Shown: positions 1,807 to 19,617 of the stretch, piece after piece
Numbering within the stretch: position 1 is the first letter of the stretch
How the letters are laid out: the number at the start of each line of letters is the position of its first letter
Assembly (NCBI RefSeq): GCF_000092045.1
Contig: NC_004041.2
Span: 124,001-188,000, forward strand
Origin: Rhizobium etli CFN 42
Lineage (GTDB): Bacteria; Pseudomonadota; Alphaproteobacteria; Rhizobiales; Rhizobiaceae
Direction of reading: 5' to 3'
DNA length: 64,000 nt
Translations under genes and position numbers: made by a program
Notes under the pieces: model-generated
The model's database searches: none
What the model was told of the DNA's origin: nothing
What the model saw: only the letters and a program-made list of their open reading frames with translations

Positions 1807-1822
1807 GCAGACAATCGGGTTG
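1807..1822 (-). promoter_or_regulatory. Partial copy of the island operator before the GntR gene
   Basis: GCAGACAATC (1807-1816) matches ten of ten bases of one end of the operator seen at 6467. The remaining six bases fit poorly (about 11 of 16 overall). It also contains ACAA-TCGGG-TTGT, a short inverted repeat. Its place 70 bases before the regulator start suggests autoregulation. This is inference. Confidence 0.4.
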
Positions 1823-1892
1823 TCCTACGAAACGCTCCGGCAGTATATTGATTCTGTGCGTCACTAGAAATTTCATCGAAGGTTTGTTGTGA

Positions 1893-2582
1893 ATGGGAAC
1901 GATCGACCTCCAGATTAGACGTCAAAACGCCTCTCTTCGAATCCTTGTTGAGGATAAGCTCCGGCAGGCTATTTCAAGTGGCCGTTTCAAGCCCGGGCAG
2001 CGGCTGGTGGAGCGCGAGTTGTGCGAACTTATCGGGGTTGGCCGAACTTCAGTTCGCGAGGCGCTACGCCAGTTAGAAGCTGAAGGGCTTATTACTAGCT
2101 ATCCGCATCGGGGGCCGGTTGTCAGCACTATCAGCTACGAGGAGGCTAGGCAGCTTTATAGTGTACGCGCGCTGCTTGAAAGCTTTGCCGGCCAGGAGTT
2201 CGCCGAGAACGGTTCGAATGAAGAGATCGTTGCTCTCCTCGAGACCGTGGAAGCGTTCGAAGCCGCAGCCAAGAGCGGTTCCGGAACGCGGATCATCGAA
2301 GCCAAGACCGCTTTTTACGATTGTTTGATGACCGGCAGCAAGAACGTGTTTGTGAAGCAAATGCTCACGTCGTTGCACAACCGGGTCACATTGTTGCGGA
2401 TGACATCGATGACCCAGCCAGGGCGGCTGCAGAACAGCGTTTTCGAAATAAGAGAGATTGCGGCCGCTATTGCGTTGCGTGATGGCGACAGGGCAGCCGC
2501 GCTTTGCAAGCGCCATATCGAAATCGCGGCTAAGGTGGCGTTGGACTACTTGAGCAAGAACCCCGTCGAAACCTCCGAGTAG
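1893..2582 (+). CDS. GntR-family transcriptional regulator, FadR/FCD subfamily
   Basis: The 229-residue protein has an N-terminal winged helix-turn-helix (about residues 15-80: LRQAISSGRFKPGQRL, then RTSVREALRQLEAEGLI, the GntR recognition region). It is followed by a helical FCD-type effector domain (about 90-215) with conserved acidic and histidine positions (LCKRHIE near the end). FCD regulators bind small carboxylic acids or sugar acids and usually repress catabolic operons. The ATG at 1893 has only a weak AAGG upstream. It lies between the dehydrogenase/lactonase pair and the hydrolase operon, and operator-like repeats lie on both sides, so it is the best candidate regulator for the 16-base elements across the island. 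Confidence 0.9.
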   Translation: MGTIDLQIRRQNASLRILVEDKLRQAISSGRFKPGQRLVERELCELIGVGRTSVREALRQLEAEGLITSYPHRGPVVSTISYEEARQLYSVRALLESFAGQEFAENGSNEEIVALLETVEAFEAAAKSGSGTRIIEAKTAFYDCLMTGSKNVFVKQMLTSLHNRVTLLRMTSMTQPGRLQNSVFEIREIAAAIALRDGDRAAALCKRHIEIAAKVALDYLSKNPVETSE

Positions 2583-2615
2583 TTCCACAAAACGAAGTTC
2601 AGGCGACGGCTAAGG

Positions 2616-2631
2616 TTGACAGATTGTCTGA
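2616..2631 (+). promoter_or_regulatory. Operator-like element TTGACAGATTGTCTGA with overlapping promoter
   Basis: The element contains overlapping short inverted repeats (GACA-GAT-TGTC and CAGA-TTG-TCTG). Its first six bases, TTGACA, form a perfect -35 box with TTACCT 18 bases downstream (2640-2645) as a possible -10 box. It is 80 bases before the alpha/beta hydrolase start. The same sequence recurs at 6497 and 19602, and in reverse at 6467, 18533 and 19522. Confidence 0.7.
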
Positions 2632-2711
2632 AAATCTGCTTACCTCTCTTATGGGAGGTGAGACACAGGAAGTGCGGCTTCCCAACAACATCATTTTGTT
2701 AGGGAGGACGT

Positions 2712-3941
2712 ATGGGCGCCCATGCCGAGCTGATTAAACGCGTAACCCTGGCGATCGAAGATCCGGAGCTACCGCGACTGACCCCAGGTCTTACAACACG
2801 GATCTCGTTGCAAGTTGGACCAGAAAAGTCATCACTTGCTGTGGGAGGCGGGATAGTCGCACTGGACGGCGCGGACGAAAATGCTGACGTCATACTGAGT
2901 GCCCCAGAAGGAGCTTGGGAAAAGGTTATGCAGGTGCCGCCGCCGGCAACCTACCATTCGTTCACCGCCTTTCAACTCGCTAACCCTGAGTTCACGTTAT
3001 CTGGTTCGCCCGTAGCAATCGCTCAAGCGCGTCCCGCTCTGGAGCGACTGTTCGAAATCGTCGTAGCGTCTCCGCCCCTAGTTGCGCCGAAGGTCGATCG
3101 AAATATTGAACAGGTCACCGGACGCTATAAGCGGGTAGAGGTCGGCGGCGTAGAACACGATATCTTTTACGAGGAAGCCGGTGCAGGAACTCCTATCCTT
3201 TTCCTCCATACGGCTGGCGCAGACGGCCGTCAGTTTCTACCGCAACTCTCCGACACTGGGTTTGCGCGTACGAACCGATTGATCTCAGTTGATCTGCCGT
3301 TTCACGGACGTTCGATGCCTCCTTTAACTTGGGACGGCTCGCCCTATCAACTCACAACGGATCTCTACCTGACCTGGTGCACGGCGATACTCGACCAGCT
3401 CGTCGGAGACAGAGCTATCGTCGTTGGAGGATCTATGGGCGCGGCGATGTGCATGGTGCTGGCGGCGGAGCGACCGGAACGTCTAATGGGTGTAATTGCG
3501 GTCGAGCCGCCGTTGAAGTCAAAGGGCCGTCGCAACCCCTTTCAACACAACGTCAACGTTCATGGGTCGCTTCATAACTCAGCCTATGTCCGCGGAATCA
3601 TGAGCCCGCTCAGCCCGCAAGAAGAGCGACGCCGCGCCAGTTGGATCTACTCGCAGGGTGCTCCTGGAGTTTATCCCGGCGATCTTTCGTTCTACAGCGA
3701 CGAGTTCGACGGTGCCGTCGTCGGTCCGAAGATTGATGCCAAGCGAACACCGACCGTTCTTCTCTCCGGGACCTATGACTACTCTGCGACGCCTGCAGAC
3801 GGAGCAGCGCTAGCGGCCCTCATTCCTGGCAGCCGTCATGTCGTTATGGAGGGGCTTGGGCACTTTCCGATGTGCGAAAATCCTGACTATTTCCGGAGCT
3901 TCTTGCAAGACGCTATTCGGTTCGTCGAAGATAACGGCTGA
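2712..3941 (+). CDS. Alpha/beta hydrolase with N-terminal extension
   Basis: The 409-residue protein has an alpha/beta-hydrolase fold from about residue 145. There is an oxyanion-loop region (LFLHTAGADGRQF), the nucleophile elbow GGSMGA with Ser241, a likely acid at Asp356 (GTYDYSAT) and the catalytic His384 (GLGHFPM). The first 140 residues are not part of the fold and vaguely resemble an SCP2-type lipid-binding module; this is a guess. It is likely a cytoplasmic esterase, lactonase or C-C hydrolase. ATG 2712 follows GGGAGG at 2701-2706. An operator and promoter sit directly upstream (2616). The IS256 remnant begins 29 bases downstream and may have cut off later genes of the operon. Confidence 0.88.
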   Translation: MGAHAELIKRVTLAIEDPELPRLTPGLTTRISLQVGPEKSSLAVGGGIVALDGADENADVILSAPEGAWEKVMQVPPPATYHSFTAFQLANPEFTLSGSPVAIAQARPALERLFEIVVASPPLVAPKVDRNIEQVTGRYKRVEVGGVEHDIFYEEAGAGTPILFLHTAGADGRQFLPQLSDTGFARTNRLISVDLPFHGRSMPPLTWDGSPYQLTTDLYLTWCTAILDQLVGDRAIVVGGSMGAAMCMVLAAERPERLMGVIAVEPPLKSKGRRNPFQHNVNVHGSLHNSAYVRGIMSPLSPQEERRRASWIYSQGAPGVYPGDLSFYSDEFDGAVVGPKIDAKRTPTVLLSGTYDYSATPADGAALAALIPGSRHVVMEGLGHFPMCENPDYFRSFLQDAIRFVEDNG

Positions 3942-3969
3942 TCACAAAGCAACCGCGTTGGCCATTTAC

Positions 3970-5282
3970 CGATCGTGTCCCAGCACCTGGTGTAGCTGAC
4001 GGTAGGGAGTAAAGCCGAGCGCCCGCGCGCTTCTCGTTGCGCTGTAGCGGGTGATCGGCTTTGCGGGCGGCCATCAGTGTTTTCCGCTAGGGTCGGGTTG
4101 TTCAAGACCAACCTGACGGAAAGATCACCGATGACCAATGACATGATGAACGTGCGTTCGCTTGTTGAGAAGAGTGCCGATGCAGATTTGTTGCGTGAGA
4201 TGATTGGCTTTGCCGCCGAGCGGCTGATGGAGTTGGAGGTCGGCTCGGCTACGGGTGCTGACTTCGGTGTGAAGAACCCCATGCGGCTCACTCAACGCAA
4301 TGGCTACCGTGACCGCGATTGGGAGACGCGGGCTGGCACCGTCGAGCTTCGCATTCCGAAGCTGCGCAAAGGCAGCTACTTTCCGAGCTTCCTTGAACCG
4401 CGCCGCATGGCAGAGAAAGCTCTGACGGCCGTTATCCAGGAAGCGTATATCCAGGGAATCTCGACTCGTTCTGTCGACGACCTGTGGTGGATGCGACCTA
4501 TCTCAAGGTCCGGCGTGGCGGCCGCATCGTCTCAGTCGCCGTCATTATCGCGGTCGGCGTCAATAACGACGGTCGGCGCGAGGTCCTGGGTATGGAAGTT
4601 GGCACCTCGGAGGCCGAACCGATCTGGACGGAATTCCTGCGCAGGCTAACGCGCCGCGGTCTACGCGGGGTGAAGTTGGTTGTCTCTGATGCACATGAGG
4701 GCATCAAGGCTGCCGTTTCCAAGGTTCTCAATGCCACTTGGCAAAGGTGCCGGGTTCACTTCATGAGGAACGTGCTCGCGCATGCTGGAAAGAGCGGCAG
4801 GCGGGTCGTATCCGCCTTCATCGCGACGGCCTTTGCCCAGGAGACCCCGGAGGCAGCAAGCCGCACAATGGCGCAGTGTCGCCGATCAAATCAGGCCGAA
4901 AGTGCCGAAGCTTGCCACCATCATGGACGACGCTGAAGAGGACGTGCTCGCCTACATGACCTTCCCGAAAGAGCACCGGGCAAAGCTGCACTCGACGAAT
5001 CCAATTGAGCGTCTCAACGGCGAAATCAAGCGACGCACCGAGGTCGTCGGCATCTTTCCGAACGACGAAGCCATCGTCCGTCTCGTCGGCGCACTGCTGC
5101 TCGAACAGAATGACGAATGGGCCGTTCAACGCGCCAAGTATATGACGCTTGAGACCATGGCCCAAATGAGATGAGCCCCAAATCAGCCTGCCCCGCTGTG
5201 GCACGCTGATATCCCCTTCCGACCCATGTCGGGAAAGCACGGCCATCAGCCGCGACCTACACCACCTCCCGGGACACGATCG
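3970..5282 (+). mobile_element. Decayed IS256-family insertion sequence
   Basis: Imperfect terminal inverted repeats of about 30 bases face each other: CGATCGTGTCCC at 3970-3981 and its reverse complement at 5271-5282, with similarity running inward through TGGTGTAG. Between them is a mutator-type transposase broken in at least two places. I found no clear target-site duplication outside the ends, which fits an old insertion or later rearrangement. It separates the hydrolase gene from the SDR/flavin-reductase block. Confidence 0.82.
4131..5174 (+). pseudogene. IS256-family transposase, frameshifted and internally deleted
   Basis: The N-terminal part (4131 to about 4484) reads [20 protein letters not shown] and on to STRSVDDL. 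It then jumps frame directly to [10 protein letters not shown], so roughly 45 residues normally between these motifs are missing. The catalytic aspartates ([18 protein letters not shown]) and the glutamate region (STNPIERLNGEIKRRT) remain. A second single-base shift near 4860 moves the frame again, so the C-terminal part (to 5174) is out of phase. No functional transposase can be made from this copy. Confidence 0.88.
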
Positions 5283-5657
5283 TATCACCTTGTATTCCGG
5301 ACTAAACTTATGCCGACAGCGTTGCGATAGAGGGCATTCGGAACCAGCATGCGGCTATTCCGGAAGGTCGGCACTCGCATGACGTCATCTGACCGACATC
5401 GTGGGGTTATTCGACAAAAATTGCGAAATGTCCTTGATCCAGTTTCCGCTGTTAGATCTCGTTGTCGCCGGCAGTCCTTCTCCTTCTCTATCATATTTGC
5501 TGGAGCGTGCCGCAAGTCCGACAAGAGCTGCGCCTAGGCCAACAGCTCTGTGCTGTCATTGACGGGTTAGGAACACGTCAATGATCAACGAGGCTGGAGC
5601 CTTATACCCGGTGTTCCTGCCTCAAATGTAAGGGCATGACGAGTGCCGCCCTTTCCT
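5283..5657. other. Intergenic stretch without a supportable gene
   Basis: Between the IS256 right end and the SDR stop I see no convincing coding region. A minus-strand frame (5285-5524) contains a phrase (RVPTFRNSRMLV) that could be a leftover of a periplasmic binding protein, but it is too short to call. Confidence 0.5.
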
Positions 5658-6425
5658 TCACTTGACCAGGTGGTTTCCGATCGAGGAGCCGCCATCGACC
5701 GTCAGAATGCTACCGGTCGCGAACCTCGAACGATCGGACGCAAGAAAAAGCATTGCTTCAGCAATCTCTTCAGCTGTCCCCATCCGATCCATGACGGCAC
5801 GGGCGTTGAAATCGCTGCGAAGCTTCGCGGGGTCCTTCGCTTCGGCGAAGATTTTCGTGAAGTAAGGAGAGTCGATTGTCCCTGGAGCGACCGCGTTGAC
5901 ACGAATTCCCTCTTTCGCATGATCCATGGCCATCGCGCGCGTCAGCGAAGATATTGCTCCTTTCGATGCTACGTAGGCAGTCCTGTCCGCGATTGCTGAG
6001 GTTGCGGTGTAGGAAGTCGTATTGATGATCGAACCTCCGCCGTTCCGTCGCATAACAGGAATGACGTACTTTGAGCAAAGGAAGATCCCTTTGACGTTTA
6101 CGGACATAATCCGGTCCCAAGTTTCTTCAGGAATGGTCACCACATTCCCCGTCGTTCCGAACCCGGCATTATTGACGAGCACGTCGACCCGGCCCCACTT
6201 TGCGGTCGTCTTCTCAACCATGCTTTCCGCGTCCTTGGCGGACGAGACGTCGACGCGAACACCGAAAGCCTTCGAGCCGATCTCGTTCGCCACACGAACC
6301 GCGGCGTCTTCATTGACATCAGCAACAACCACATAGGCGCCGTTCTTTGCGAAAAGCTCGGCTGTCGCACGACCAATGCCGCTGCCGCCCCCTGTGACGA
6401 TACAAACTCTTTGATTCAAATCCAT
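5658..6425 (-). CDS. SDR-family NAD(P)-dependent oxidoreductase
   Basis: The 255-residue protein is a classical short-chain dehydrogenase/reductase: TGGGSGIG cofactor motif near the N-terminus, NNAGFG, active-site Ser in the TTSYTATS stretch and YVASKGA (Tyr-x-x-x-Lys). The C-terminal LTVDGGSSIG is typical of the family. It oxidises or reduces a hydroxyl/carbonyl group in the cytoplasm. The start at 6425 is chosen because GAGGAG lies just upstream on the minus strand; a longer frame reaching 6482 would cover the operator. It is divergent from the flavin reductase, and two mirror-image operators lie in the shared promoter region. Confidence 0.92.
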   Translation of the reverse strand: MDLNQRVCIVTGGGSGIGRATAELFAKNGAYVVVADVNEDAAVRVANEIGSKAFGVRVDVSSAKDAESMVEKTTAKWGRVDVLVNNAGFGTTGNVVTIPEETWDRIMSVNVKGIFLCSKYVIPVMRRNGGGSIINTTSYTATSAIADRTAYVASKGAISSLTRAMAMDHAKEGIRVNAVAPGTIDSPYFTKIFAEAKDPAKLRSDFNARAVMDRMGTAEEIAEAMLFLASDRSRFATGSILTVDGGSSIGNHLVK

Positions 6426-6466
6426 CGACCATCTCCTCATTTTTGGGTGCCTTAGAAGACATTTTA

Positions 6467-6482
6467 GCAGACAATCTGTCAA
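6467..6482 (-). promoter_or_regulatory. Operator-like element facing the SDR gene
   Basis: On the minus strand this reads TTGACAGATTGTCTGC, identical over all 16 bases to the plus-strand copy at 6497-6512. The two are mirror images 14 bases apart. The TTGACA part could serve as the -35 box for the SDR gene; the matching -10 is weak. Confidence 0.68.
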
Positions 6483-6496
6483 TTGTGAAAATCCAG

Positions 6497-6512
6497 TTGA
6501 CAGATTGTCTGC
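6497..6512 (+). promoter_or_regulatory. Operator-like element with overlapping promoter for the flavin reductase operon
   Basis: TTGACAGATTGTCTGC, with TTATCT 18 bases after TTGACA (6521-6526) as a plausible -10. The arrangement matches that at 2616-2645. A repressor bound here would cover the -35 box. Confidence 0.7.
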
Positions 6513-6559
6513 TGATCTGTTTATCTAGGCTCGATCGAATTTGGCCGTGGGAGGACAAT

Positions 6560-7069
6560 ATGGCCGATACCAGCACTGAGGCGCAGTTGGCTTTTAAGGC
6601 AGCTATGCGTCGGTTCACATCAACCATCTGCTTGATCACGACCGAACTCAACGGGGTCCGTCATGGCATGGCCGCCACCGCGGTCCAGTCGGTTACCGCG
6701 GACCCACCAACTGTTCTTGTCTGCATCAACCAATCGGCTTCGGTGAATCAGCCTTTGAAGATCTCCGGGAAGTTCGCCGTGAACATGCTGCATCTTTCAC
6801 ATGCCGATCTTGTGCCGCTGTTCAGTGGGCAATTGAAGGGTGAAGAGCGCTTTCATTACGGCGAGTGGCTGTCTCTCGACGGCATGCCGGTCCTGTCCGA
6901 TGCGCAGGCGGCGTTTGTCTGCAAGCTAAAAGATGTCGTTCACGTTGGAACGCATGATGTTGTGCTCGGAGAAGTGCTCGAAGCACGGTTCATCGAGTCA
7001 ATCGCGCCGCTTCTCTACGAAAACGGTCAACTCGTCAGGTCGTCGTCCATCAGTGGATCGGCCGCATAG
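6560..7069 (+). CDS. Flavin reductase domain protein (RutF/HpaC type)
   Basis: The 169-residue protein begins FKAAMRRFTSTICLITTELNGVRHGMAATAVQSVTADPP, with the Thr-Ala-(x)-Ser-Val-(x)-Pro flavin-binding region and a FAVNMLH strand. These are hallmarks of the flavin reductase split-barrel family that supplies reduced FMN or FAD to two-component monooxygenases using NAD(P)H. ATG 6560 follows GGGAGG at 6549-6554. It heads a tight plus-strand series with the CMD-like protein and the LLM monooxygenase, so its likely partner is the oxygenase at 7610. Confidence 0.9.
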   Translation: MADTSTEAQLAFKAAMRRFTSTICLITTELNGVRHGMAATAVQSVTADPPTVLVCINQSASVNQPLKISGKFAVNMLHLSHADLVPLFSGQLKGEERFHYGEWLSLDGMPVLSDAQAAFVCKLKDVVHVGTHDVVLGEVLEARFIESIAPLLYENGQLVRSSSISGSAA

Positions 7070-7132
7070 TAGGTGGCTTTAACCACCAATCACATCACTC
7101 ATCGAAAGCCCAAGGGCGGCAAGGAGAAAAGC

Positions 7133-7549
7133 GTGAGCAATATGGCACCCGCAAGAGAAATTCATGGACGTGAAGTCACAGAGCGCTTTGAGCGCGGACT
7201 AAAGACCCGGCGCGAAGTCTTGGGGGGGGGCTATGTTGATGCGTCGGTCAGCAAAGCCACCGACTTCAATTGGCCGATGCAAACCCTCGTCACAGAATAC
7301 TGCTGGGACGCGATTTGGAATCGGCCGGGCCTGGAGCGCAAGCAGCGCAGCATCCTCAATCTCGGGATGATTTCGGCCCTCAATCGTCCGCATGAGCTGA
7401 AACTGCATGTTCGCGGAGCAATCAACAACGGTCTTACCAAAGAGGAAATTCGGGAGGTTTTCCTCCAGGTTTCGATTTACTGCGGTGTTCCTGCGGCCAT
7501 CGACAGCTTCCGCGTGGCAGCGGAAGTTTTCGACGAGATGGGCATCTAG
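7133..7549 (+). CDS. Carboxymuconolactone decarboxylase-like (AhpD-fold) protein
   Basis: The roughly 138-residue protein matches the CMD family: LNLGMISALNRPHELKLHVRGAINNGLTKEEIREVFLQ, then YCGVPAAIDSFR. The histidine and glutamate positions of PcaC-type decarboxylases are present, and the paired-cysteine motif of AhpD peroxidases is absent, so decarboxylase or lactone/tautomer chemistry fits better than a redox role. The GTG at 7133 is chosen for the AAGGAG at 7121-7126; ATG 7142 is the alternative. Its place between the flavin reductase and the monooxygenase suggests it acts on the oxygenation product. A run of eight G residues near 7225 lies inside the gene without breaking it. Confidence 0.85.
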   Translation: MSNMAPAREIHGREVTERFERGLKTRREVLGGGYVDASVSKATDFNWPMQTLVTEYCWDAIWNRPGLERKQRSILNLGMISALNRPHELKLHVRGAINNGLTKEEIREVFLQVSIYCGVPAAIDSFRVAAEVFDEMGI

Positions 7550-7609
7550 TTATTCAACGCATTTGAGTGGGCTGAGCATCATCCGTTGCCAGCCCGAGGA
7601 GGGACTACA

Positions 7610-8731
7610 GTGACCGCACAAGACGATTTCCGCGCTGCCGGAAACCCAATGTTCAATGATAACAAGCTCAAGCTCGGCGTATTTGGCACGAATTGCTCGA
7701 ATGCATGCGCGATTACGCTCGCTGAGACAACGTTCGAACCTACCTTCGACCACAACGTCGAGATTGCAAAGAAGCTTGAGGCAGCCGGTTGGGAATGCAT
7801 GGTGCCGATTGCACGCTGGCGTGGTTTTGGCGGTCCTTCAAACTTCAATGGCGTGAACATGGATACGTTCACCTGGGCGGCCGCTCTCGCGGCGGTCACC
7901 ACGAAGCTCCAGTTCTTCTCAACGACTCACATTCCGACGCTAAACCCGATTGTTGCAACCAAGATGGCGACAACAATCGATCACATCTCGAAGGGTCGAT
8001 ACGGCCTCAATCTCGTTACCGGCTGGTTCACTCCCGAAATGGAAATGTTCGGAGTTCCTATGATGGAGCACGACACCCGCTATGAATACGCCACTGAATG
8101 GATGGATATCGTCGAGACGCTCTGGAAACGCAATGGCGTTACCTTCGAAGGCGAGTTCCTCAAAGTCAAAGACGCCTTCAGTGAACCCAAACCCTACAAC
8201 AAGGCGGGTCGCCCGCTCCTGATCTGCGCCGGCGCCTCGGGCAAGGGACTGCATTTCACCGCCAAGTTCTGCGACTTCAACTTCGGCTTCATGCAAGACA
8301 TGGAATCCGGCGCTGCCTGGGTCAAAAAGGTGAAGGACCTGGCGCGTACTGAATATAACCGTGATCTTGGCACATTCACAGCTTGCCCCGTTATCGTTCG
8401 CGAAACGGAGAAGGAAGCAAAGGAATACTACGACTACTACGTCAACCAGAAGGGTGACTGGGAGGCATGCGAGAACATCTGTGAAGTTCTGCAGGTGCAA
8501 TCTCAAAACCATTCTGCCGAAATGTATCAAAAATTCAAGGAACGCTTCGTCGCTGGCTGGGGTGGATACCCGATCGTCGGCAATCCAGAACAAGTCGCCG
8601 ACAAGCTCGTGGATCTCAGCAATACAGGCGTCAACGGCGCCTTGCTGACAATGGTCGATTACAACGAGGAACTTCCCTTCTTTAACGACCGTGTCATGCC
8701 GCTGCTCAAGCAAGCCGGTCTGCGCAACTGA
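7610..8731 (+). CDS. LLM-class flavin-dependent monooxygenase (RutA-like)
   Basis: The 373-residue protein is a luciferase-like TIM-barrel oxygenase. The N-terminal LGVFGTNCSNA strand, the ARWRGFGGPSNF segment, TFTWAAALAAVTTKLQFFSTTHIPTLNP and ATTIDHISKGRYGLNLVTGW are close in layout to pyrimidine monooxygenase RutA and related enzymes. Such enzymes use reduced FMN from a separate reductase to insert oxygen. GTG 7610 is preferred because GAGGAGGG lies 7-8 bases upstream. It follows the flavin reductase and CMD-like genes. No rutB or rutC partner is present, so uracil is unlikely to be the substrate. A strong hairpin follows the stop (8740-8763). Confidence 0.9.
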   Translation: MTAQDDFRAAGNPMFNDNKLKLGVFGTNCSNACAITLAETTFEPTFDHNVEIAKKLEAAGWECMVPIARWRGFGGPSNFNGVNMDTFTWAAALAAVTTKLQFFSTTHIPTLNPIVATKMATTIDHISKGRYGLNLVTGWFTPEMEMFGVPMMEHDTRYEYATEWMDIVETLWKRNGVTFEGEFLKVKDAFSEPKPYNKAGRPLLICAGASGKGLHFTAKFCDFNFGFMQDMESGAAWVKKVKDLARTEYNRDLGTFTACPVIVRETEKEAKEYYDYYVNQKGDWEACENICEVLQVQSQNHSAEMYQKFKERFVAGWGGYPIVGNPEQVADKLVDLSNTGVNGALLTMVDYNEELPFFNDRVMPLLKQAGLRN

Positions 8732-8739
8732 ACCAGTCC

Positions 8740-8854: not shown

Positions 8855-10024
8855 ATGCTGAAGAAAATCGTTGCAGCGCTTTTTACGCTGTCGAGCCTTT
8901 ATCACATGAACGGCGTGGCGAAGGCTGACGGCCTCGATTCGTTGCCGCCGGACCAAAAGGCGCTTTACGAGAATATCGATCCCGCCATTCCGCTCGGGGG
9001 GACGGTGTACAAAGATTTTGTTCCAAAACGTCCACCGCCGTGGAAAATTGGTTATGCATCCACATATGCCGGTAATACCTGGCGCGCGAACATCCTGGAC
9101 GAATTCACCAACGTATTGCTTCCGAGATATAAGGAAGCAGGCCTAGTCTCCGATCTAATCGTCACGCAGTCTGACCTCAAAGACGCTGTCCAAATCCAGC
9201 AGATGCGGCAGATGGTTGACGACGGTGTTGATGCGATCGTCATTTGCTGCTCGAACATTACCGCACTTAACAAGACCATAGAGTATGCTCATTCGAAAGG
9301 CGTGCCAGTCTTCTCAGTCTCGGGCTATGTCACATCACCCTACGCAATCAATGCCACAGAGAATAACACCGACGGTGGCTACAAGGCTGCTGAATGGCTT
9401 GCCAAGGAAATCGGTGAAAAAGGCAACGTCCTGATGGTATCGGGCATCCCCGGTTTCGCATCATCGGACAGCTTCGACATCGGCGCGAAGAACGCGTTCG
9501 ATAAATTCCCCGGTATCAAAATTGTAGGCACGATAGCTGGCAAATGGACCGACCAGGTCGCCCAGGTTGAGGTTCAGAAGTTTCTTGCCACCAATCTTGC
9601 TGAGGTTAATGGCATTCTCGTTCAGTCCGCTTCAGAAAACGGTGTCGTGAACGCAGTACAGCAATCCGGCCGCGACATGATGCCTATCGTGCTCGGGGGT
9701 GAGGCTTCGGCAGCCTGCTACTGGCGTAAGAACCCTGATTTCATAAGCAAGAGCTTCCATTTCTGGCCGCCGCGGTCTGATGCCCGCCTTGTGTGGGACG
9801 TCATGATGCGAACGCTTGAAGGCCAGGGACCAAAGATCCAGTCGATTCTTCGTCCTGCGCTTCCTTACACCATTGATGACGTGAAGGAAGTGCTGAAGGA
9901 AGATTGCGATCCCAATTCCACGGATTGGATCGAGCCGAAGAACAACGGCTGGTGGCCTGCAGACGTCGCTGCAAACTACTTCGAACGTCCTGAAGATCCG
10001 TTAGCTTGGCGGCCGAAGAAGTAA
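8855..10024 (+). CDS. Periplasmic sugar-type ABC transporter substrate-binding protein
   Basis: The 389-residue protein has a Sec signal peptide (MLKKIVAALFTLSSLYHMNG...AKADG) and a periplasmic-binding-protein type I fold, as in ribose/xylose binders: PPWKIGYAST, DLKDAVQIQQMRQMVDDGVDAIVICC, GVPVFSVSGYV, and a C-terminal lobe. ATG 8855 follows GGGGAGGAGG. No permease or ATPase lies beside it; the nearest is the cassette at 20875-24362, which has its own binding protein. Its stop overlaps the next start (TAATG), coupling it to the aminotransferase. The ligand is unknown. Confidence 0.9.
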   Translation: MLKKIVAALFTLSSLYHMNGVAKADGLDSLPPDQKALYENIDPAIPLGGTVYKDFVPKRPPPWKIGYASTYAGNTWRANILDEFTNVLLPRYKEAGLVSDLIVTQSDLKDAVQIQQMRQMVDDGVDAIVICCSNITALNKTIEYAHSKGVPVFSVSGYVTSPYAINATENNTDGGYKAAEWLAKEIGEKGNVLMVSGIPGFASSDSFDIGAKNAFDKFPGIKIVGTIAGKWTDQVAQVEVQKFLATNLAEVNGILVQSASENGVVNAVQQSGRDMMPIVLGGEASAACYWRKNPDFISKSFHFWPPRSDARLVWDVMMRTLEGQGPKIQSILRPALPYTIDDVKEVLKEDCDPNSTDWIEPKNNGWWPADVAANYFERPEDPLAWRPKK

Positions 10025-11319
10025 TGAATGTTCTCCGGAAGGAGACCTCCCAGCCTCCCGCGTCGGTTTCTATAATCGGCGCGGGAGGTATCTGCGATTT
10101 GATTGGAAATAGTGTGCTGGACTTTCACAGAATTCAACGTTTGCCGCCTTATGTTTTCGAACAGGTCAACCGTTTGAAAGCAAGCGCGCGAGCGGGCGGC
10201 GCCGATATCATTGATCTCGGCATGGGAAACCCCGACCTTCCCACTCCTCAGTCGATCGTCGACAAGCTGTGCGAGGTCGTGCAGGATCCGCGCACCCACC
10301 GCTATTCCTCCTCCAAGGGCATTCCGGGGCTGCGCCGTGCCCAGGCCGCCTATTATGCCCGCCGTTTCGGTGTCAAGCTCAACCCGGATACCCAGGTGGT
10401 CGCCACCTTGGGCTCCAAGGAAGGCTTCGCCAACATGGCGCAGGCGATCACCGCGCCCGGCGACGTGATCCTCTGCCCGAACCCGACCTATCCGATCCAC
10501 GCCTTCGGCTTCCTGATGGCCGGCGGCGTGATCCGCTCGATGTCGGTTGAGCCGGATGAGAGCTTTTTCCCGCCGCTGGAGCGGGCGGTCCGGCATTCGA
10601 TCCCGAAGCCGTTGGCGCTGATCCTCAACTATCCGTCGAACCCGACGGCCCTCGTCGCGACGCTCGATTTCTATAAGGACGTCGTCGCCTTCGCCAAGAA
10701 GCATGACATCATCGTGCTTTCCGACCTTGCCTATTCCGAGATCTACTTCGACGGCGCTCCGCCGCCATCGGTTCTCGAAGTGCCGGGTGCAATGGATGTG
10801 ACCGTCGAATTCACCTCGATGTCGAAGACCTTTTCCATGCCCGGCTGGCGCATGGGCTTTGCCGTCGGCAACGAGCGGCTGATCGCGGCGCTCACCCGCG
10901 TCAAGTCCTATCTCGACTACGGCGCCTTCACGCCGATCCAGGTGGCCGCGACCCATGCGCTGAACGGCGACGGTTCCGACATTGCGGAGGTTCGCAACGT
11001 CTACAAGCGTCGCCGCGACGTCATGGTCGAAAGCTTCGGGAAGGCCGGCTTCGACGTGCCGCCGCCGGCTGCCACCATGTTCGCCTGGGCAAAGATCCCG
11101 GAAAAGTTCCGTCATCTCGGTTCGCTGGAGTTTTCCAAGCTGCTGGTCGAGAAGGCCGACGTCGCCGTTGCACCGGGTATCGGCTTCGGCGAAATGGGCG
11201 ACGACTACGTCCGTCTGGCGCTCGTCGAGAACGAACACCGCATCCGCCAGGCTGCGCGCAACATCAAACGCTGGCTTAGCGGCGACGAGAAATTTGAAAT
11301 CAACGTAATGAATCAGTGA
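10024..11319 (+). CDS. PLP-dependent class I/II aminotransferase (AlaC / LL-DAP aminotransferase-like)
   Basis: The protein is about 431 residues. After roughly 32 unusual N-terminal residues it becomes a standard rhizobial aminotransferase (FHRIQRLPPYVFEQVNRLKA... ), with NYPSNPTA, DLAYSEIYFDG and the PLP lysine in SMSKTFSMPGWRMGF. Such enzymes exchange amino groups between 2-oxo acids and alanine/glutamate. From about 10200 to 11290 base composition rises sharply in G+C and codon use looks chromosomal, unlike its neighbours, so it seems a recruited housekeeping paralogue. The start is set by the TAATG overlap; an internal start near 10117 would give the usual family length. Confidence 0.88.
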   Translation: MNVLRKETSQPPASVSIIGAGGICDLIGNSVLDFHRIQRLPPYVFEQVNRLKASARAGGADIIDLGMGNPDLPTPQSIVDKLCEVVQDPRTHRYSSSKGIPGLRRAQAAYYARRFGVKLNPDTQVVATLGSKEGFANMAQAITAPGDVILCPNPTYPIHAFGFLMAGGVIRSMSVEPDESFFPPLERAVRHSIPKPLALILNYPSNPTALVATLDFYKDVVAFAKKHDIIVLSDLAYSEIYFDGAPPPSVLEVPGAMDVTVEFTSMSKTFSMPGWRMGFAVGNERLIAALTRVKSYLDYGAFTPIQVAATHALNGDGSDIAEVRNVYKRRRDVMVESFGKAGFDVPPPAATMFAWAKIPEKFRHLGSLEFSKLLVEKADVAVAPGIGFGEMGDDYVRLALVENEHRIRQAARNIKRWLSGDEKFEINVMNQ

Positions 11320-11330: not shown

Positions 11331-11729
11331 ATGCCAATCTTCGGATCATGCCAATGCAAAGCGGTAACGTACCAGGTTCAGGAAATTGATGGACCCATGT
11401 GGAATTGCTTCTGTCAAACATGCCGGAAGTCACACGCCGCTGATCACAATACCGCTGCGAAGGTGAAAAGCGAGCACTTCAAGATCCTTACAGGCCAAGA
11501 TACGCTTCATAGCTTCGAATCGACGCCTGGAAAGCTGCGGTGGTTTTGTTCGGTATGTGGCTCGCACGTTTATGCGGAGCGGCCGGCCAGCCCGGAGCTC
11601 AAAGTCGTTAGAGCCGGCACGTTCGATACCGATCCTGGAAGTGTGCCGATGTCAAACGTATGGGTATCGCATGCGGAACCTTGGCTCGCCCATGATCCAT
11701 CGAAGGCAAGCTCACCAGAGTTCCCGTAA
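11331..11729 (+). CDS. GFA-family (glutathione-dependent formaldehyde-activating-like) zinc protein
   Basis: The 132-residue protein shows the GFA/CENP-V fold cysteines: GSCQCKAVTY, NCFCQTCRKSHAA and WFCSVCGSHVYAE, which would bind two zinc ions. Family members are linked to glutathione adducts of aldehydes, though most have no proven reaction. ATG 11331 follows AAAGGA by six bases, 12 bases after the aminotransferase stop. In this island it may handle an aldehyde intermediate; that is inference. Confidence 0.85.
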   Translation: MPIFGSCQCKAVTYQVQEIDGPMWNCFCQTCRKSHAADHNTAAKVKSEHFKILTGQDTLHSFESTPGKLRWFCSVCGSHVYAERPASPELKVVRAGTFDTDPGSVPMSNVWVSHAEPWLAHDPSKASSPEFP

Positions 11730-12089
11730 GTGACCGGGATACTACCTGTCGTAACTGAGGTGGAGCCACGGCGACCGTATATCAAGCGGCAACGCCTCAT
11801 TCCGTGTCCAGGAGGTTCTAACGCAAACGTGCTGGGTCGGTAAAAGCGGCAGGGATTGCAGACAGTAGGTGCGCTTGCACGGCGAGCCCACCCATTGAGA
11901 GAATAAAGTCGTACGAGACAGAAGACTTCTGCGAAGCAATCCAGCCTTCGAGGTTGGGAAATTACGGGTTGTGAGGGCTCAGGACACCGCAGGACTATTT
12001 TTGCCCCCACGGGTCCTCAACGACCTCCATTGCGGTGTGAGTGAAAATTGTAAGATTGTCTTATGCGAGAATGTTGGGAGTCCTGTGAC
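11730..12089. other. Intergenic stretch with no gene; operator variant at its end
   Basis: No supportable coding region. The only signal noted is the operator-like element at 12048-12063. Confidence 0.55.
12048..12063 (+). promoter_or_regulatory. Variant of the island operator before the FMN reductase/ribBA pair
   Basis: TTGTAAGATTGTCTTA matches the consensus at 13 of 16 positions and keeps the GATTGTCT core. It ends 27 bases before the FMN reductase start. Confidence 0.5.
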
Positions 12090-12608
12090 ATGAAAGTTGT
12101 TGTAATAACGGGGAATTTATCGCGCCCCTCGAAAACCCGGGCCGTAGCAGACTTCATGGTGGATCGGGTGCGCGCGTCCGGCAACGAAGCAAGCTGCTGG
12201 GACCTTGTCGACCTTCATCCGCACCTTGGGGCAACAGTGTTGCCCTCCAGCGCCGCTGAGATTGTTAAAGCGGCACTCAACGATATTTTGGCTAGTGACG
12301 TGCTAGTTGTTGGTAGTCCGGTCTACAAAGCATCTTACACTGGGTTGCTGAAGCATTTATTCGACCTTGTCGACATGAAAGCGCTTAAGGGCCGCTATGT
12401 GATCCCTTTTGCAACCGGTAAAGCATCGAGTCACAAGCCGCTCGTCGAAGCCTCGATGGAAGCCTTATTCGACTTTTTCGAAGCGCAAATACATAGCCGT
12501 TTCATTTTCGCTCTCGATGAAGATTTTCAGAACGATGCTCTTTCTGAGAACCTGCGCGCGCTTGTCGACAGAGAGCTCGATGCCGCGCGTCGCGCCGTCA
12601 GCCCATAA
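12090..12608 (+). CDS. NAD(P)H-dependent FMN reductase (SsuE/MsuE-like)
   Basis: The 172-residue protein has a flavodoxin-like fold: VVVITGNLSRPSKT at the N-terminus and VGSPVYKASYTGLLKHLFDLVD, which closely follows the FMN-binding segment of SsuE-type reductases. It reduces FMN with NAD(P)H and passes it to a monooxygenase. ATG 12090 is chosen over 12063 because GGGAG precedes it and the longer start overlaps the operator variant. It is followed 16 bases later by ribBA, so the pair forms a flavin supply unit in addition to the flavin reductase at 6560. Confidence 0.88.
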   Translation: MKVVVITGNLSRPSKTRAVADFMVDRVRASGNEASCWDLVDLHPHLGATVLPSSAAEIVKAALNDILASDVLVVGSPVYKASYTGLLKHLFDLVDMKALKGRYVIPFATGKASSHKPLVEASMEALFDFFEAQIHSRFIFALDEDFQNDALSENLRALVDRELDAARRAVSP

Positions 12609-12624
12609 TAAGGAGGAGGATTCC

Positions 12625-13905
12625 ATGTCTTTTTCGAGCATAGATGAGGCGATCGAGGCGATCGAAGCGGGCGAGATGGTTATCGTGGTCGACGACGAAA
12701 ACCGGGAGAATGAAGGCGACCTAGTCGTTGCTGCCGAAAAAATAACAGCTGAGCACATCGCTTTCATGATGAAATATGCGAGAGGCCTTATCTGCGTGCC
12801 ACTTCCAGCCGAACGTCTCGACAAACTCGAGATCCCCCTGATGGTCACACGTAATTCGGACTCACTGCAGACGGCATTTACCGTTTCCGTCGATTGCAAA
12901 CACGGCACAACGACAGGGATTTCAGCCGAAGATCGAGCAGCAACCGTCAAGTCGCTCATCGATCCGCAGACGCGGCCGGAAGACCTATCGCGACCGGGTC
13001 ACATTTTTCCTTTGCGTGCAAATCGTCTCGGTGTCCTGGGCCGTCCTGGCCACACCGAAGCTGCCGTGGATCTTGCACGACTTGCCGGCCTGGCGCCGGC
13101 TGGCGTAATCTGCGAGATCGCCAATGACGACGGAACCATGTCTCGACTGCCAGATCTCGAGAAGTTCGCAATCGAACATGGCCTGCACATAGTAACGATC
13201 GACGCTTTGATTGAGTACTGCAGGAGTCGTGATACGAGGGTAAAGCGTTACGCGCAGTCCTTTATGCCAACGCGGTTTGGGGATTTCAAGGCAATTGCTT
13301 ATCGCGATAGTTTGACGGGAACGGAACACTTAGCTTTGACACTTGGCGAGTTGTGCGAGAAGGAAGACGTTCTGGTACGGGTGCATTCTGAATGTCTGAC
13401 AGGTGAGGCGTTCCGGTCCATGCGATGCGACTGCGGTCAACAGCTCGAAATGGCTCTTCGGGCGGTCCAGTTAGCGGGCGCTGGTTGCGTGATCTACATG
13501 CGTGGGCAAGAGGGGCGTGGCATTGGCTTAGGAAACAAAATTGCGGCTTACAGCCTGCAGGATCATGGTCGTGATACTCTTGAGGCAAATCGGGAACTCG
13601 GCTTCGCATCTGATTCCCGCGAATATAACGCAGCGGCGGATATCATCCGCGACCTCGGTATCGGCAGCGTTCGGCTTCTGACCAACAATCCTACAAAAAT
13701 AGAGGCGCTGCGAACGTCAGGCGTCATCGTGTCGTCTCGCCAGAGTCTGATCGCCGCATCTAGCGCGTCCAACATCACTTATTTTAAGACAAAGCGCGAT
13801 CGGTTTGGCCACCTGTTGGACCAGGACACGTCAGCTGAACACGTCGGCCGGAGCAACGTCTTTTCAGTGTTTGGCGCGCAGGTGTTCTCTGGACCCCTTG
13901 GATAA
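12625..13905 (+). CDS. ribBA: Bifunctional DHBP synthase / GTP cyclohydrolase II
   Basis: The 426-residue fusion contains a RibB domain (about 1-200; DDENRENEGDLV acidic metal-binding loop) and a RibA domain (about 205-400; ECLTGEAFRSMRCDCGQQL zinc cysteines and MRGQEGRGIGL). Together they make both precursors of riboflavin: 3,4-dihydroxy-2-butanone 4-phosphate from ribulose 5-phosphate, and the pyrimidine precursor from GTP. ATG 12625 follows a strong AAGGAGGAGGA site. As an extra plasmid-borne copy after an FMN reductase, it probably raises flavin supply for the monooxygenase. The C-terminal 30 residues beyond the RibA domain are not conserved-looking. Confidence 0.93.
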   Translation: MSFSSIDEAIEAIEAGEMVIVVDDENRENEGDLVVAAEKITAEHIAFMMKYARGLICVPLPAERLDKLEIPLMVTRNSDSLQTAFTVSVDCKHGTTTGISAEDRAATVKSLIDPQTRPEDLSRPGHIFPLRANRLGVLGRPGHTEAAVDLARLAGLAPAGVICEIANDDGTMSRLPDLEKFAIEHGLHIVTIDALIEYCRSRDTRVKRYAQSFMPTRFGDFKAIAYRDSLTGTEHLALTLGELCEKEDVLVRVHSECLTGEAFRSMRCDCGQQLEMALRAVQLAGAGCVIYMRGQEGRGIGLGNKIAAYSLQDHGRDTLEANRELGFASDSREYNAAADIIRDLGIGSVRLLTNNPTKIEALRTSGVIVSSRQSLIAASSASNITYFKTKRDRFGHLLDQDTSAEHVGRSNVFSVFGAQVFSGPLG

Positions 13906-14918: not shown

Positions 14919-14986
14919 ATGCGGCACGATGACTCGGTCGGCAAATTCCGACGGCGAAGCGCCGCTGGTTTTGATAGGCTTCCACC

Positions 14987-16519: not shown

Positions 16520-16600
16520 TATGGTCAATCGCAAAATGACTGCAGCAATCAGACGCGAAGAGACATAGGAACCTTATCGTTCCGTCGGCTACGATTAACG

Positions 16601-17185: not shown

Positions 17186-17374
17186 CCAATAACCACTTCC
17201 GAAGTAACACTCGAGGTTGAGTAACACCGCAAATGTTGGAAGACAATGACATGGCTGTTGCGACCCCGCTCCAAGCCATCAAAAAACTGCTTCTTTGTCG
17301 AGGTGTGAGCGGCACATCGCTTACGGATCGCATTTAATCGCGGTCCGTCTTGTCTTTCGAAAAGTCTCGCAAAA

Positions 17375-18481
17375 CTAATGCTTCATGCGAAGGATCGGCT
17401 TAATGACTTTGCCGCTCTCGGAATCAGCCATCGCCTCGTTGATCTGGTCGAGGTCATAGAACTGAACCAGTTTGTCGAACGGGAAAAGTCCCTGCTGCCA
17501 ATACTCGATCAACTGCGGGACGAACTCGGACGGAACGCTTTGTCCTTCGACAACGCCGATCAATGTGCGGCCGAAAAGGAAGTTCCCGATATCGATCGTG
17601 CCTTCAGTGCCGAGAGCGGACGAGCCAACGAGACCGCATGTTCCCGGCGTACCAAGGCAGTCGACTGCCTGACGGAAAACTCGCGGCGAACTCGTGCATT
17701 CCAAGCTGAAATCAACGCCTGCGGGGACGATCTTCCTGATCGCGGCAACGCTGTCCAATTTGCGGGCATTTATCGTGTGCGTCGCCCCGAGTTCGCGCGA
17801 AAGTTCCAGCCGTTCATCGTTCAAGTCGATCACGATGATGGTCGCGCATCCGGCGATTTTCGCGGCCATCGTAGCCGCCATTCCAACCGCACCAGCACCG
17901 AACACTGCTATTGACGAGCCGGGCTTCGGCTTGAGGCAATTCAGTACCGCGCCAGCACCGGTCTGAAGCCCGCACCCGAGCGGTCCGATCAACTCGAGTG
18001 GAACATCCTTTGCAACCTTCACGGCGTTTCGTTCGCTGGCGATGGCGTAGGTTGCAAAAGACGACTGCTCGAAGAAGCAGCCACTAATCTGTTTCCCGTG
18101 AGAATCATGGATCGGGCAGGTGCCATCCGGACGAGTGCCGCGGAAATTGCGACCGAAGAAGTCCTCGCAGTAGAAAGGTGTACCGGAAAGGCACTTTTCG
18201 CACTTGCCGCAATAGGCGTAGCTCAAAGCAACGTGATCACCGGGCACAAGATCTTTAACTGCGCTCCCGACGGCCTCGACGACGCCAGAGCCTTCGTGTC
18301 CCAACACAACAGGTTGAGGTACGTCATATCCCTGGTCCCTGACCACCAGGTCGGTATGACATACCCCCGATGCGACGATGCGGACCAAAATCTCGTCTGC
18401 ACGAGGTTCCTCAATCCCTATGCACTCCAAGATCAAGGGCTTCGCCTTTTCGCGCGAGACCGCCGCATATGCCTGCTTCAT
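17375..18481 (-). CDS. Zinc-dependent aryl-alcohol-type dehydrogenase
   Basis: The 368-residue protein is a medium-chain zinc alcohol dehydrogenase of the benzyl/aryl-alcohol branch. It has the catalytic zinc site (SGVCHTDL; GHEGSGVV), the structural-zinc lobe (CGKCEKCLSGTPFYC), LGCGLQTGAGAVLN and the NAD motif VFGAGAVGMAA with an acidic IDLN next to it, favouring NAD. It likely oxidises an alcohol to the aldehyde. The start at 18481 is set by GGAGGAA just upstream. An operator lies at 18533-18548. It is clearly paralogous to the gene at 24421. Confidence 0.93.
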   Translation of the reverse strand: MKQAYAAVSREKAKPLILECIGIEEPRADEILVRIVASGVCHTDLVVRDQGYDVPQPVVLGHEGSGVVEAVGSAVKDLVPGDHVALSYAYCGKCEKCLSGTPFYCEDFFGRNFRGTRPDGTCPIHDSHGKQISGCFFEQSSFATYAIASERNAVKVAKDVPLELIGPLGCGLQTGAGAVLNCLKPKPGSSIAVFGAGAVGMAATMAAKIAGCATIIVIDLNDERLELSRELGATHTINARKLDSVAAIRKIVPAGVDFSLECTSSPRVFRQAVDCLGTPGTCGLVGSSALGTEGTIDIGNFLFGRTLIGVVEGQSVPSEFVPQLIEYWQQGLFPFDKLVQFYDLDQINEAMADSESGKVIKPILRMKH

Positions 18482-18532
18482 GTAACTGTTCCTCCAAGGC
18501 TCACAACGCAATTCGCGCGAACGTACTCATCG

Positions 18533-18548
18533 TCAGACAATCAGTCAA
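18533..18548 (-). promoter_or_regulatory. Operator-like element before the dehydrogenase
   Basis: On the minus strand it reads TTGACTGATTGTCTGA, one base from the copy at 2616. TACGTT (minus strand, 18525-18520) lies 17 bases from TTGACT and could be the -10 box of the 18481 gene. Confidence 0.65.
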
Positions 18549-18845
18549 TAATTACTCTATTAAATTAGATCAGTTCAACCGGAGCAGGGCTGCATTTTTG
18601 CAAAGTCACGAGTGAACGCTGATTTGAAGTGATCAAAGGGTTCCGATGCATGTTCGAAAGGGAGCATGCGTTTTGTCCCGCTTTGGGCTGAAAGATCGGC
18701 AGACGAAAATTTAGTAGCAACGTGTGAGGCGAGCCGGATGGCGTCGCTTGCCGACGTCGAGCCGGTTCTGAAGGCTATCGACAGCTTCGAGACACCGGTA
18801 TTGCCAAGTTCAACCGACTACAAACGATGCTACTGCCAGCCAGGC
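18549..18845. other. Intergenic stretch between divergent-side genes
   Basis: It starts A+T-rich (18541-18600). A plus-strand frame from 18666 runs into the antisense of the mutase-like gene, and I do not accept it as a gene. Confidence 0.45.
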
Positions 18846-19475
18846 TTAACAGACAGTACCAACCAGGACGTTAGTCTTCTCGATGATCGAGAGGTCCGAC
18901 GCAATCCGGTATACAGTTGGCGCGGCGGTCGGTGACTCAATAGCGAGCGTATCCTGGATCGTGAGGCGTTCGATGCCCTGCTTTAGTGACCTGATCGTAT
19001 TCCCGTGGGCCACCACAAGAACCGATTTCCCTCTCAACAAGGGGGGGAACACTTCGCTTATCAAAAAGGGCAGAACCCTCGCGCTTATGTCCCGTATGCT
19101 TTCTCCCCCAGGTGGTGGAGTGCTGTACGAGCGGCGCCAAACCTGGACAACATCCTGGCCCCACCGCTCACGTGCCACGTTCTTGTTGATGCCGGTGAGC
19201 TGTCCGTAGTCGCGTTCGTTCAACTCGGTTCTCCTGATTGGCTCCAGCAGATCGCCGTTGGTTTCGTTCAAAATCGCTCTGCAAGTGTCGACTGTGCGCA
19301 AGAGGGCAGAACTAAACGCAATATCGAACGAGATGCCGAGGTTCGCGAGCAGTGAGCCGGCTCGCCTGCTCTCAGACCAGCCCTCCTGTGTGAGCGGCAC
19401 GTCGCTCGTACCCGTGAACTCCCCGCGCGCGTTCCCTTCGCTTTGGCCATGCCGGACAATCACCAGAGTGGACAT
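18846..19475 (-). CDS. Phosphoglycerate mutase-like histidine phosphatase
   Basis: The 209-residue protein starts STLVIVRHGQSEGNARGEFTG, the RHG phosphohistidine motif. It continues with the mutase-like segments ELNERDYGQLTG, PPGGESIRD and VVAHGNTIRSL (second catalytic histidine). It matches 2,3-bisphosphoglycerate-dependent mutases in layout but is a little short. It could be a true mutase or a phosphatase for another phosphoester. It has its own operator (19522-19537), which argues for a role in this catabolic regulon rather than glycolysis. Confidence 0.85.
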   Translation of the reverse strand: MSTLVIVRHGQSEGNARGEFTGTSDVPLTQEGWSESRRAGSLLANLGISFDIAFSSALLRTVDTCRAILNETNGDLLEPIRRTELNERDYGQLTGINKNVARERWGQDVVQVWRRSYSTPPPGGESIRDISARVLPFLISEVFPPLLRGKSVLVVAHGNTIRSLKQGIERLTIQDTLAIESPTAAPTVYRIASDLSIIEKTNVLVGTVC

Positions 19476-19521
19476 TCATAACCCTCCCATCGATTTAGCG
19501 AACACGAATATTGTCGCACTA

Positions 19522-19537
19522 TCGGACAATCCGTCAA
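19522..19537 (-). promoter_or_regulatory. Operator-like element before the mutase-like gene
   Basis: Minus strand: TTGACGGATTGTCCGA. Compared with the other copies it carries changes at two positions (A to G, T to C) that keep the inner pairing CGGA/TCCG, as expected for a dimer-binding site. Confidence 0.62.
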
Positions 19538-19601
19538 GTGCGACTATGTGCAAGTGAAAACAAAACGATGTCGAAAAAACAAACGTCGAAGTTTATATTT
19601 A

Positions 19602-19617
19602 TTGACAGATTGTCTGA
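19602..19617 (+). promoter_or_regulatory. Operator-like element before the ABC transporter operon
   Basis: TTGACAGATTGTCTGA, identical to the copy at 2616. TACCAA lies 17 bases after TTGACA (19625-19630). With 19522-19537 it forms a divergent pair in the mutase/transporter intergenic region. Confidence 0.7.

Follow-up and report, generated by a model that had tools for sequence, protein, structure and literature searches.

In Rhizobium etli CFN 42 a repeated 16-base element, TTGACNGATTGTCNGM, stands before the genes of a catabolic island. We put at about 84% the probability that two GntR-type repressors, GntR1 and GntR2, use it as their operator and regulate their own genes; they would block about ten promoters of the island and be released by a compound of bean root exudate or its breakdown product. 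The stretch analysed here (the window, 64,000 nucleotides) covers positions 124001-188000 of the 371,254-base contig C1, which we take to be the symbiosis plasmid p42d; the genome has 6.53 Mb in 7 contigs. Coordinates without the prefix C1 are those of the window. The computations support an operator that is confined to the island, linked to one GntR clade and overlapping the -35 box, and a core that is conserved in the gntR promoters. We infer physical binding, an action as repressors and not as activators, the operon extents and the inducer.

All six strong copies listed by the original prediction were found without a mismatch, at 2616(+), 6467(-), 6497(+), 18533(-), 19522(-) and 19602(+). 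The exact motif occurs ten times in the whole genome, every time inside the 49 kb of C1:94391-143617; the four copies beyond the window are at C1:94391, 94599, 111342 and 114599, and weaker ones outside the window are at C1:95606, 122881/122892 and 46941. Read backwards as a control, the motif is absent from the CFN 42 genome and occurs once in all 200 genomes searched. When up to one mismatch was allowed, 11 of the 12 genome matches lay inside the same interval, and a 21-mer form of the element (see below) with up to three mismatches matched ten times, always in this interval (control, 0). At up to two mismatches, the 16-base pattern gave 74 genome matches versus 27 for the backwards control; this level of the scan is mostly background. 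A matrix made from the ten exact copies and scanned over a 164-kb stretch yielded 15 matches scoring at least 21, the ten training copies included, and none of 20 Markov resamplings of the 164 kb reached this score (best, 20.4). Instead of the random scatter through the genome that the original prediction had named as evidence against a regulon, we thus found a motif confined to the island, both in the pattern search of the whole genome and in the matrix scan of the 164 kb. A chance origin of the set was rejected on the pattern counts, the controls and the resampling. The set first described reaches about 30 kb farther, to the left of the window.

With the annotation of the plasmid of R. etli CIAT 652, a close relative of the CFN 42 plasmid, gene starts lie 42-114 nt from all six window copies, on the same strand and with the copies pointing toward them, as had been stated for every copy. 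The weaker copy at 12048, first described as a 13/16 variant, is not significant by mismatch count, since 14 matches with up to three mismatches were found in the window versus 10.3 expected. Its matrix score of 21.0, however, exceeds the best of the 20 resamplings, and a diverged relative (L086) has a strong copy (L086:3414, score 28.5) at the equivalent place before the flavin mononucleotide (FMN) reductase gene. The other two- and three-mismatch matches in the window (16259, 30101, 30154, 33532, 36879, 46278) were taken as chance; none has a matrix score of 15 or more. The regulator gene and the sites in the window are as follows.

1808..1829, minus strand: operator core in the promoter of gntR1 itself (CAGACAATCGGGTTGTCCTACG on the plus strand); block conserved, flanks differ
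1893..2582, plus strand: gntR1, GntR/FCD regulator of 229 aa, proposed repressor (Pfam GntR and FCD; co-occurrence)
2615..2635, plus strand: putative operator/promoter of the hydrolase gene (exact copy; 21-mer match)
6463..6483, minus strand: putative operator/promoter of the SDR gene (exact copy; 21-mer match)
6496..6516, plus strand: putative operator/promoter of the flavin reductase-CMD-monooxygenase genes (exact copy; 21-mer match)
12047..12067, plus strand: weak candidate operator of the FMN reductase-ribBA unit (score 21.0; strong site at the same place, L086:3414)
18529..18549, minus strand: putative operator/promoter of the Zn-dependent alcohol dehydrogenase (Zn-ADH) gene (exact copy; 21-mer match)
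19518..19538, minus strand: putative operator/promoter of the mutase-like gene (exact copy; matrix match)
19601..19621, plus strand: putative operator/promoter of teuBAC1C2 (exact copy; 21-mer match)

GntR1 combines an N-terminal GntR winged helix-turn-helix (PF00392, 4.7e-20, 71.4 bits, cut-off 27) with a C-terminal FCD domain (PF07729, 8e-27, 94.6 bits, cut-off 24.3). Its DNA is matched at 98.6% or more by 36 plasmid records, all from Rhizobium. A paralogue, gntR2, lies outside the window at C1:93689-94369; its product is 73% identical to GntR1, with a near-identical helix-turn-helix region. Among the 200 genomes, which include that of CFN 42 itself, 25 encode a GntR of at least 70% identity, and all 25 contain the exact motif, 3-17 times each. 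In the other 175 genomes it is found once in 10 and never in 165. By equal-base arithmetic roughly a dozen chance copies are expected in these 175 genomes without a close GntR, and the single copies in the 10 genomes can therefore be taken as probable background. The one in G123 is about 0.8 kb away from a gene for a GntR relative of 42% identity. In G163, whose GntR is 63% identical, the variant TTGACGGATTGTCGTACAATC is found between the divergent gntR and dehydrogenase genes.

The motif also accompanies gntR in other genera. A profile search of the genome contigs with an alignment of seven GntR proteins gave 556 confirmed loci, the best 80 of which were kept, near-duplicates among them; a good site was defined as at least 17/21 matches within 600 bp of gntR. 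Such a site was present in 24/27 loci at 66-100% GntR identity, in 8/13 at 57-65% and in 7/10 at 50-56%, that is, in 39 of 50 loci at 50% or more versus 2 of 30 at 40-49%. The backwards pattern was found beside gntR in none of the 80. Bearers of the motif include Bradyrhizobium, Rhodopseudomonas, Bosea, Stappia, Henriciella and one Pseudomonas syringae strain. Frequent neighbours of gntR in these bearers are genes for a hydrolase, a CMD protein and an NAD(P)-dependent dehydrogenase, the last annotated as 6-phosphogluconate dehydrogenase in CIAT 652 and resembling 3-hydroxyisobutyrate dehydrogenase by eye. The operator also marks a comparable set of genes in other soil bacteria. Two genomes with GntR relatives of 45-46% identity share a different element between gntR and a monooxygenase gene (L079:10050-10345 and L080:8895-9115), ATTGTATGA-N-AGAATACGT-N-TTACAAT, which may serve a sister clade of GntR as operator.

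Alignment of 61 sites from 13 sources, 14 of them from the CFN 42 plasmid, defines a conserved block of 21 bp, ATTGACAGATTGTCTGATAAT (positions 0-20), plus T24 and T30; as these sites were picked with the ten-copy matrix, the alignment leans towards it. The 16-base element of the original prediction is hence real, but the conserved unit is longer. Apart from positions 24 (0.75 bit) and 30 (0.41 bit), both at the -10, the flanks hold no more than 0.24 bit per position. The block begins with TTGACA, which resembles a -35 box, and a TATAAT-like hexamer (at least 4/6) peaks at a spacing of 17 bp from it (14 of 61 sites; 0-9 at 20 other spacings). This peak, together with the gntR promoters described below, lends moderate support to an overlap of the element with the -35 box, as had been proposed for its first six bases. 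Inside the block lies the palindrome ATTGTCnGAYAAT, which an outer right arm (at least 6/7 of CTGTCAA) completes to 27 bp in 6 of the 61 sites. The overlapping short inverted repeats described before, GACA-GAT-TGTC and CAGA-TTG-TCTG, are both present by inspection. In form the palindrome resembles the operators of the FadR subfamily, lying near their consensus TNGTNNNACNA (Rigali et al. 2002, as quoted in the excerpts of PMC2230225, where 1-2 mismatches are tolerated); the fit is exact in 7 sites and within one mismatch in 31 more. A search for GATTGTCTGA in open-licence papers gave no relevant title among the matches listed.

The promoters of the gntR genes contain the core of the element without its -35 part. 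The core CAGACAATC, in reverse orientation and without TTGAC, is found in 12 of the 13 gntR promoters examined, and autoregulation of gntR is therefore likely; the sole promoter without it is that at L086:10359, where gntR lies downstream of a GFA gene. Since the other 12 keep the core without TTGAC, the proposed repressor core would be separable from the -35 box. The half-copy that the original prediction had seen at 1807 faces away from gntR, yet the 22-bp block around it (1808-1829) is conserved. In three lineages (CFN 42, G055, G086) this block is invariant save for two positions and reads CAGACAATCGGGyTGTCyTACG, and the gntR2 block reads TCAGACAATCy, then GATTG, in six lineages. Candidate promoter elements of gntR1 are TTGTCC (1820-1825, -35-like) and TATATT (1844-1849, -10-like), 18 bp apart.

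The co-occurrence in 200 genomes, the motif beside gntR in other genera and the FadR-like core agree with the original choice of the GntR/FCD protein at 1893 as the binder. The island has two such paralogues, and GntR1 and GntR2 very probably both bind the element. Three Agrobacterium plasmid records (those behind L072, L075 and L076) hold a single GntR relative at E 1e-40 and keep the operator before teuB, so that GntR2 alone may suffice for teu; the lone relative is of the GntR2 type in L072 and L075, and L076 has the gene order of L072. The FCD metal site includes the motif D-x3-H and a later H. GntR1 has K-TAF-Y and I in place of these residues of a solved relative, and the FY pair is the same in seven relatives, down to 44% identity; the pocket for the ligand may therefore hold no metal. 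PdhR, LldR and NanR are GntR repressors of the FadR/FCD subfamily. Among the NCBIfam equivalogs for characterised FCD-type regulators of this kind GntR1 reached no cut-off and scored far below them, and an assignment as a PhnR-type phosphonate regulator (TIGR03338) was rejected at 127.3 bits versus an equivalog cut-off of 271.5.

A possible mechanism is the following. A GntR dimer would bind ATTGTCnGAYAAT in the spacer between the TTGACA -35 and the -10 and thereby keep RNA polymerase from about ten promoters, all in one island. A constituent of bean root exudate, or a breakdown product of it, would bind the FCD domain and free the DNA of the repressor. The teu transporter would then be switched on jointly with the catabolic enzymes (flavin monooxygenase, CMD, hydrolases and dehydrogenases), the flavin supply (FMN reductase and ribBA) and the units with a chemoreceptor. 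The simplest account is a repressor that sits in the spacer until a ligand derived from exudate releases it; this accords with the reported induction of teu by bean exudate and with its role in competitiveness.

Several observations weigh against this account. Of the 14 sites in CIAT 652, 4 are not followed by a gene start on their own strand within 150 nt, and 2 overlap a small hypothetical open reading frame (ORF). The -10 signal, at 14 of 61 sites, is modest, and 23 of the 61 sites differ from the FadR consensus at two or more positions. A good site as defined above is missing from 11 of the 50 loci at 50% identity or more and from 28 of the 30 below, and the near-duplicates make the 80 loci not independent. 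In one of the 11 (L116, on the same contig as L086) a gntR2-like gene stands within a gene row, the nearest strong site being farther away.

Four other explanations have to be compared with the repressor pair. An AraC-family regulator encoded at 27468 in the same island, the second candidate binder of the original prediction, could bind and activate the promoters, and orthologues of at least 93% identity occur in 20 of the 25 motif-bearing genomes. Yet the other five (G012, G066, G086, G102 and G104), with 3-7 exact sites, gave no match to this protein at E 1e-80, and the motif is absent from G057 and G098, which encode relatives of it at 50 and 66%. The position of the palindrome over the -35/-10 spacer also suits a repressor, and it is GntR that the motif accompanies into other genera. 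AraC 27468 was rejected as the binder on its absence from the five genomes, and we regard this explanation as very improbable; the genome-wide comparison covered 27468, and a second AraC gene (C1:110017) was compared with the fetched loci only. Just as improbable is a mere promoter type, with a shared -35 in an extended context or a dedicated sigma factor. The usually consensus -35 and the -10-like peak at 17 bp would fit it, but conservation extends to position 20, beyond the -35, the gntR promoters hold the core in reverse direction without TTGAC, and genomes without a close GntR have at most one copy.

Binding of GntR1 and GntR2 with activation as their main effect, or a further regulator that sets the bean response, seems unlikely as well, if less so. 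GntR-family proteins can activate from other positions, as at the Corynebacterium glutamicum ptsG site centred at -60 (excerpts of PMC2230225), but the operator here covers the -35/-10 spacer, a blocking position. The least credible explanation is that the copies stem from recent duplication of promoter segments or from a small mobile repeat without regulatory function. The regulon does contain paralogous modules (two gntR genes, two CMD genes and several ATP-binding cassette (ABC) systems); the copies nevertheless share only about 21 bp, with flanks of at most 0.24 bit per position apart from positions 24 and 30.

The proposed operator ties together the units named in the original prediction (hydrolase, SDR, flavin reductase/CMD/monooxygenase, dehydrogenase, mutase-like and transporter), each of which has a site before it. 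The genes in the window and, by contig coordinates, the units outside it are:

2712..3941, plus strand: alpha/beta hydrolase (Pfam Abhydrolase_1; near gntR in many relatives)
5658..6425, minus strand: SDR oxidoreductase (NCBIfam NF004791 above cut-off)
6560..7069, plus strand: flavin reductase (Pfam Flavin_Reduct)
7142..7549, plus strand: carboxymuconolactone-decarboxylase-family (CMD) protein (Pfam CMD)
7610..8731, plus strand: luciferase-like flavin monooxygenase (Pfam; RutA is the nearest solved relative, yet below the RutA equivalog cut-off)
8855..10024, plus strand: periplasmic binding protein (Pfam Peripla_BP_4)
10114..11319, plus strand: class I/II aminotransferase (NF006604 above cut-off)
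11331..11729, plus strand: GFA-family protein (library match)
12090..13905, plus strand: FMN reductase and ribBA (Pfam; FMN reductase start as in CIAT 652)
17375..18481, minus strand: Zn-ADH (library match)
18846..19475, minus strand: histidine-phosphatase (mutase-like) protein (library match)
19731..24362, plus strand: teuB, teuA, teuC1 and teuC2 transporter (identity to CIAT 652 pB genes)
C1:94391 and 94599: sites of the dehydrogenase gene after gntR2
C1:95606: site before a second CMD gene, facing away
C1:111342: unassigned site
C1:114599: site of an SDR gene followed by a chemoreceptor gene
C1:122881/122892: sites of metallo-hydrolase and ADH genes

Judged from gene order, the unit behind site 6497 would run from the flavin reductase through CMD, monooxygenase, binding protein and aminotransferase to the GFA protein. 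A site precedes the Zn-ADH homologue in all seven loci compared (L070-L075 and L083). The Pfam domain of the hydrolase begins at residue 161, leaving an extra N-terminal part. The monooxygenase and both binding proteins reached no equivalog cut-off in NCBIfam, and we propose no substrate from the enzyme names.

The teu genes of Rhizobium tropici were reportedly described as bean-exudate-induced by Rosenblueth et al. in 1998. In their aligned parts, teuB, teuA, teuC1 and teuC2 of CFN 42 share 100, 99.8, 100 and 100% identity with the so-named genes on CIAT 652 pB and thus belong to the teuBAC1C2 set for transport of bean exudate. The sequence ATTGACAGATTGTCT is invariant in 7/7 aligned teuB promoters. 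With tblastn, teuB matches 52 plasmid records at 80% or more, the next ones falling below 60%; 44 of the 52 have Phaseolus as host-or-source label and 4 are from Agrobacterium. The reports of induction by bean exudate concern R. tropici (teu, as cited in the excerpts of PMC3557214) and R. phaseoli, for which an increase of the ABC transporter genes so described is reported in general terms (excerpts of PMC8581550), not CFN 42; according to excerpts of PMC4125696, teu is required for competitiveness. We found no report of a teu regulator or inducer in open-licence papers, and the terms "GntR" and "teu" are both absent from the excerpts of the RhizoBindingSites papers (PMC7674921, PMC9611204). 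Excerpts of a further paper of this series, PMC11387232, mention one R. etli GntR gene, RHE_RS20625, which we could not place.

In kind, the system is an ordinary GntR repressor/operator regulon, real and well-bounded. It shares with R. tropici the operator before teuB and the transporter itself (85-92% identity to the CIAT 899 homologues), but the CFN 42 regulon is much larger than the transporter alone, and the regulator and operator proposed here are not named in the excerpts of the teu literature. A close parallel in design is the pair GntR1 and GntR2 of C. glutamicum, two functionally redundant regulators with one operator form near TNGTNNNACNA and a catabolic regulon (excerpts of PMC2230225); that regulon, however, serves gluconate and glucose in another phylum, and in R. 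etli the redundancy is putative. The FadR/FCD repressors PdhR, LldR and NanR resemble GntR1 in domain make-up and in an operator near the subfamily consensus, but differ in the equivalog scores and the metal-site residues. NodD is a LysR-type activator that senses flavonoids and acts at the nod box on the symbiosis plasmid. Both systems would place plant-exudate-responsive regulation on that plasmid, the one by a LysR activator for flavonoids, the other by a GntR type tied to catabolism.

The analysis supplies a likely and testable regulator for teu, whose induction by bean exudate and importance for nodulation competitiveness have been known since 1998. The shared operator and repressors would explain how the island genes are switched on near bean roots. 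With an operator and repressor pair defined, a simple reporter or thermal-shift assay could also find the inducer, the regulon could be delimited as a whole, and a promoter responsive to the bean rhizosphere would become available.

About 45 kb from the regulon, an operator-like site at C1:46941 (L034:2941) lies about 340 bp before a gene at C1:47294-49738 (L034:3294-5738) named GH3 beta-glucosidase from the annotation of homologous records. The site is part of TTGTCTGTCAACAGATTGTCTGATAAA, a block of 27 bp that does not differ between R. etli, R. tropici, R. gallicum, S. fredii GR64 and A. salinitolerans, although the non-coding DNA around it is likewise well conserved, which weakens the block as evidence. 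In the last four of these the GH3 gene adjoins chemoreceptor and metallo-hydrolase genes, and in R. tropici and A. salinitolerans the stretch runs on to gntR1. Against membership stands S. fredii NXT3, a bearer of teuB, whose GH3 gene is 75% identical and lacks the block. GH3 is a possible further member of the regulon and would hint at a glucoside substrate.

A tentative joint reading, doubtful as a whole, is a second plant-signal regulon of bean symbionts beside nod. GntR1 and GntR2 would sense one compound typical of bean-tribe exudates, perhaps a beta-glucoside or its product, and chemotaxis, uptake, deglucosylation by GH3 and a flavin-oxygenase pathway would form a private food supply, which would decide how well the bacteria compete for nodulation. 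The core of gntR, NAD(P)-dependent dehydrogenase, hydrolase and CMD would then be an undescribed catabolic system of soil proteobacteria that symbiosis plasmids have enlarged.

Some further features of the island were noted. In CIAT 652, about 735 bp free of annotated genes separate the counterpart of the perfect copy at C1:111342 from the next operator; in CFN 42, IS66-like transposase ORFs (by eye, about C1:111486-113876) lie in this gap. The copy may mark a decayed gene or a small RNA. At 980-1772 lies a remnant of a metallo-beta-lactamase-fold gene (Pfam), the 5' part of which seems out of frame by eye; its counterpart in R. tropici and A. salinitolerans is a longer gene annotated as N-acyl homoserine lactonase family. 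Two sets of transposase-like ORFs (by eye, at 4077-5174 and C1:83010-84217) have identical starts, and both lie beside the island.

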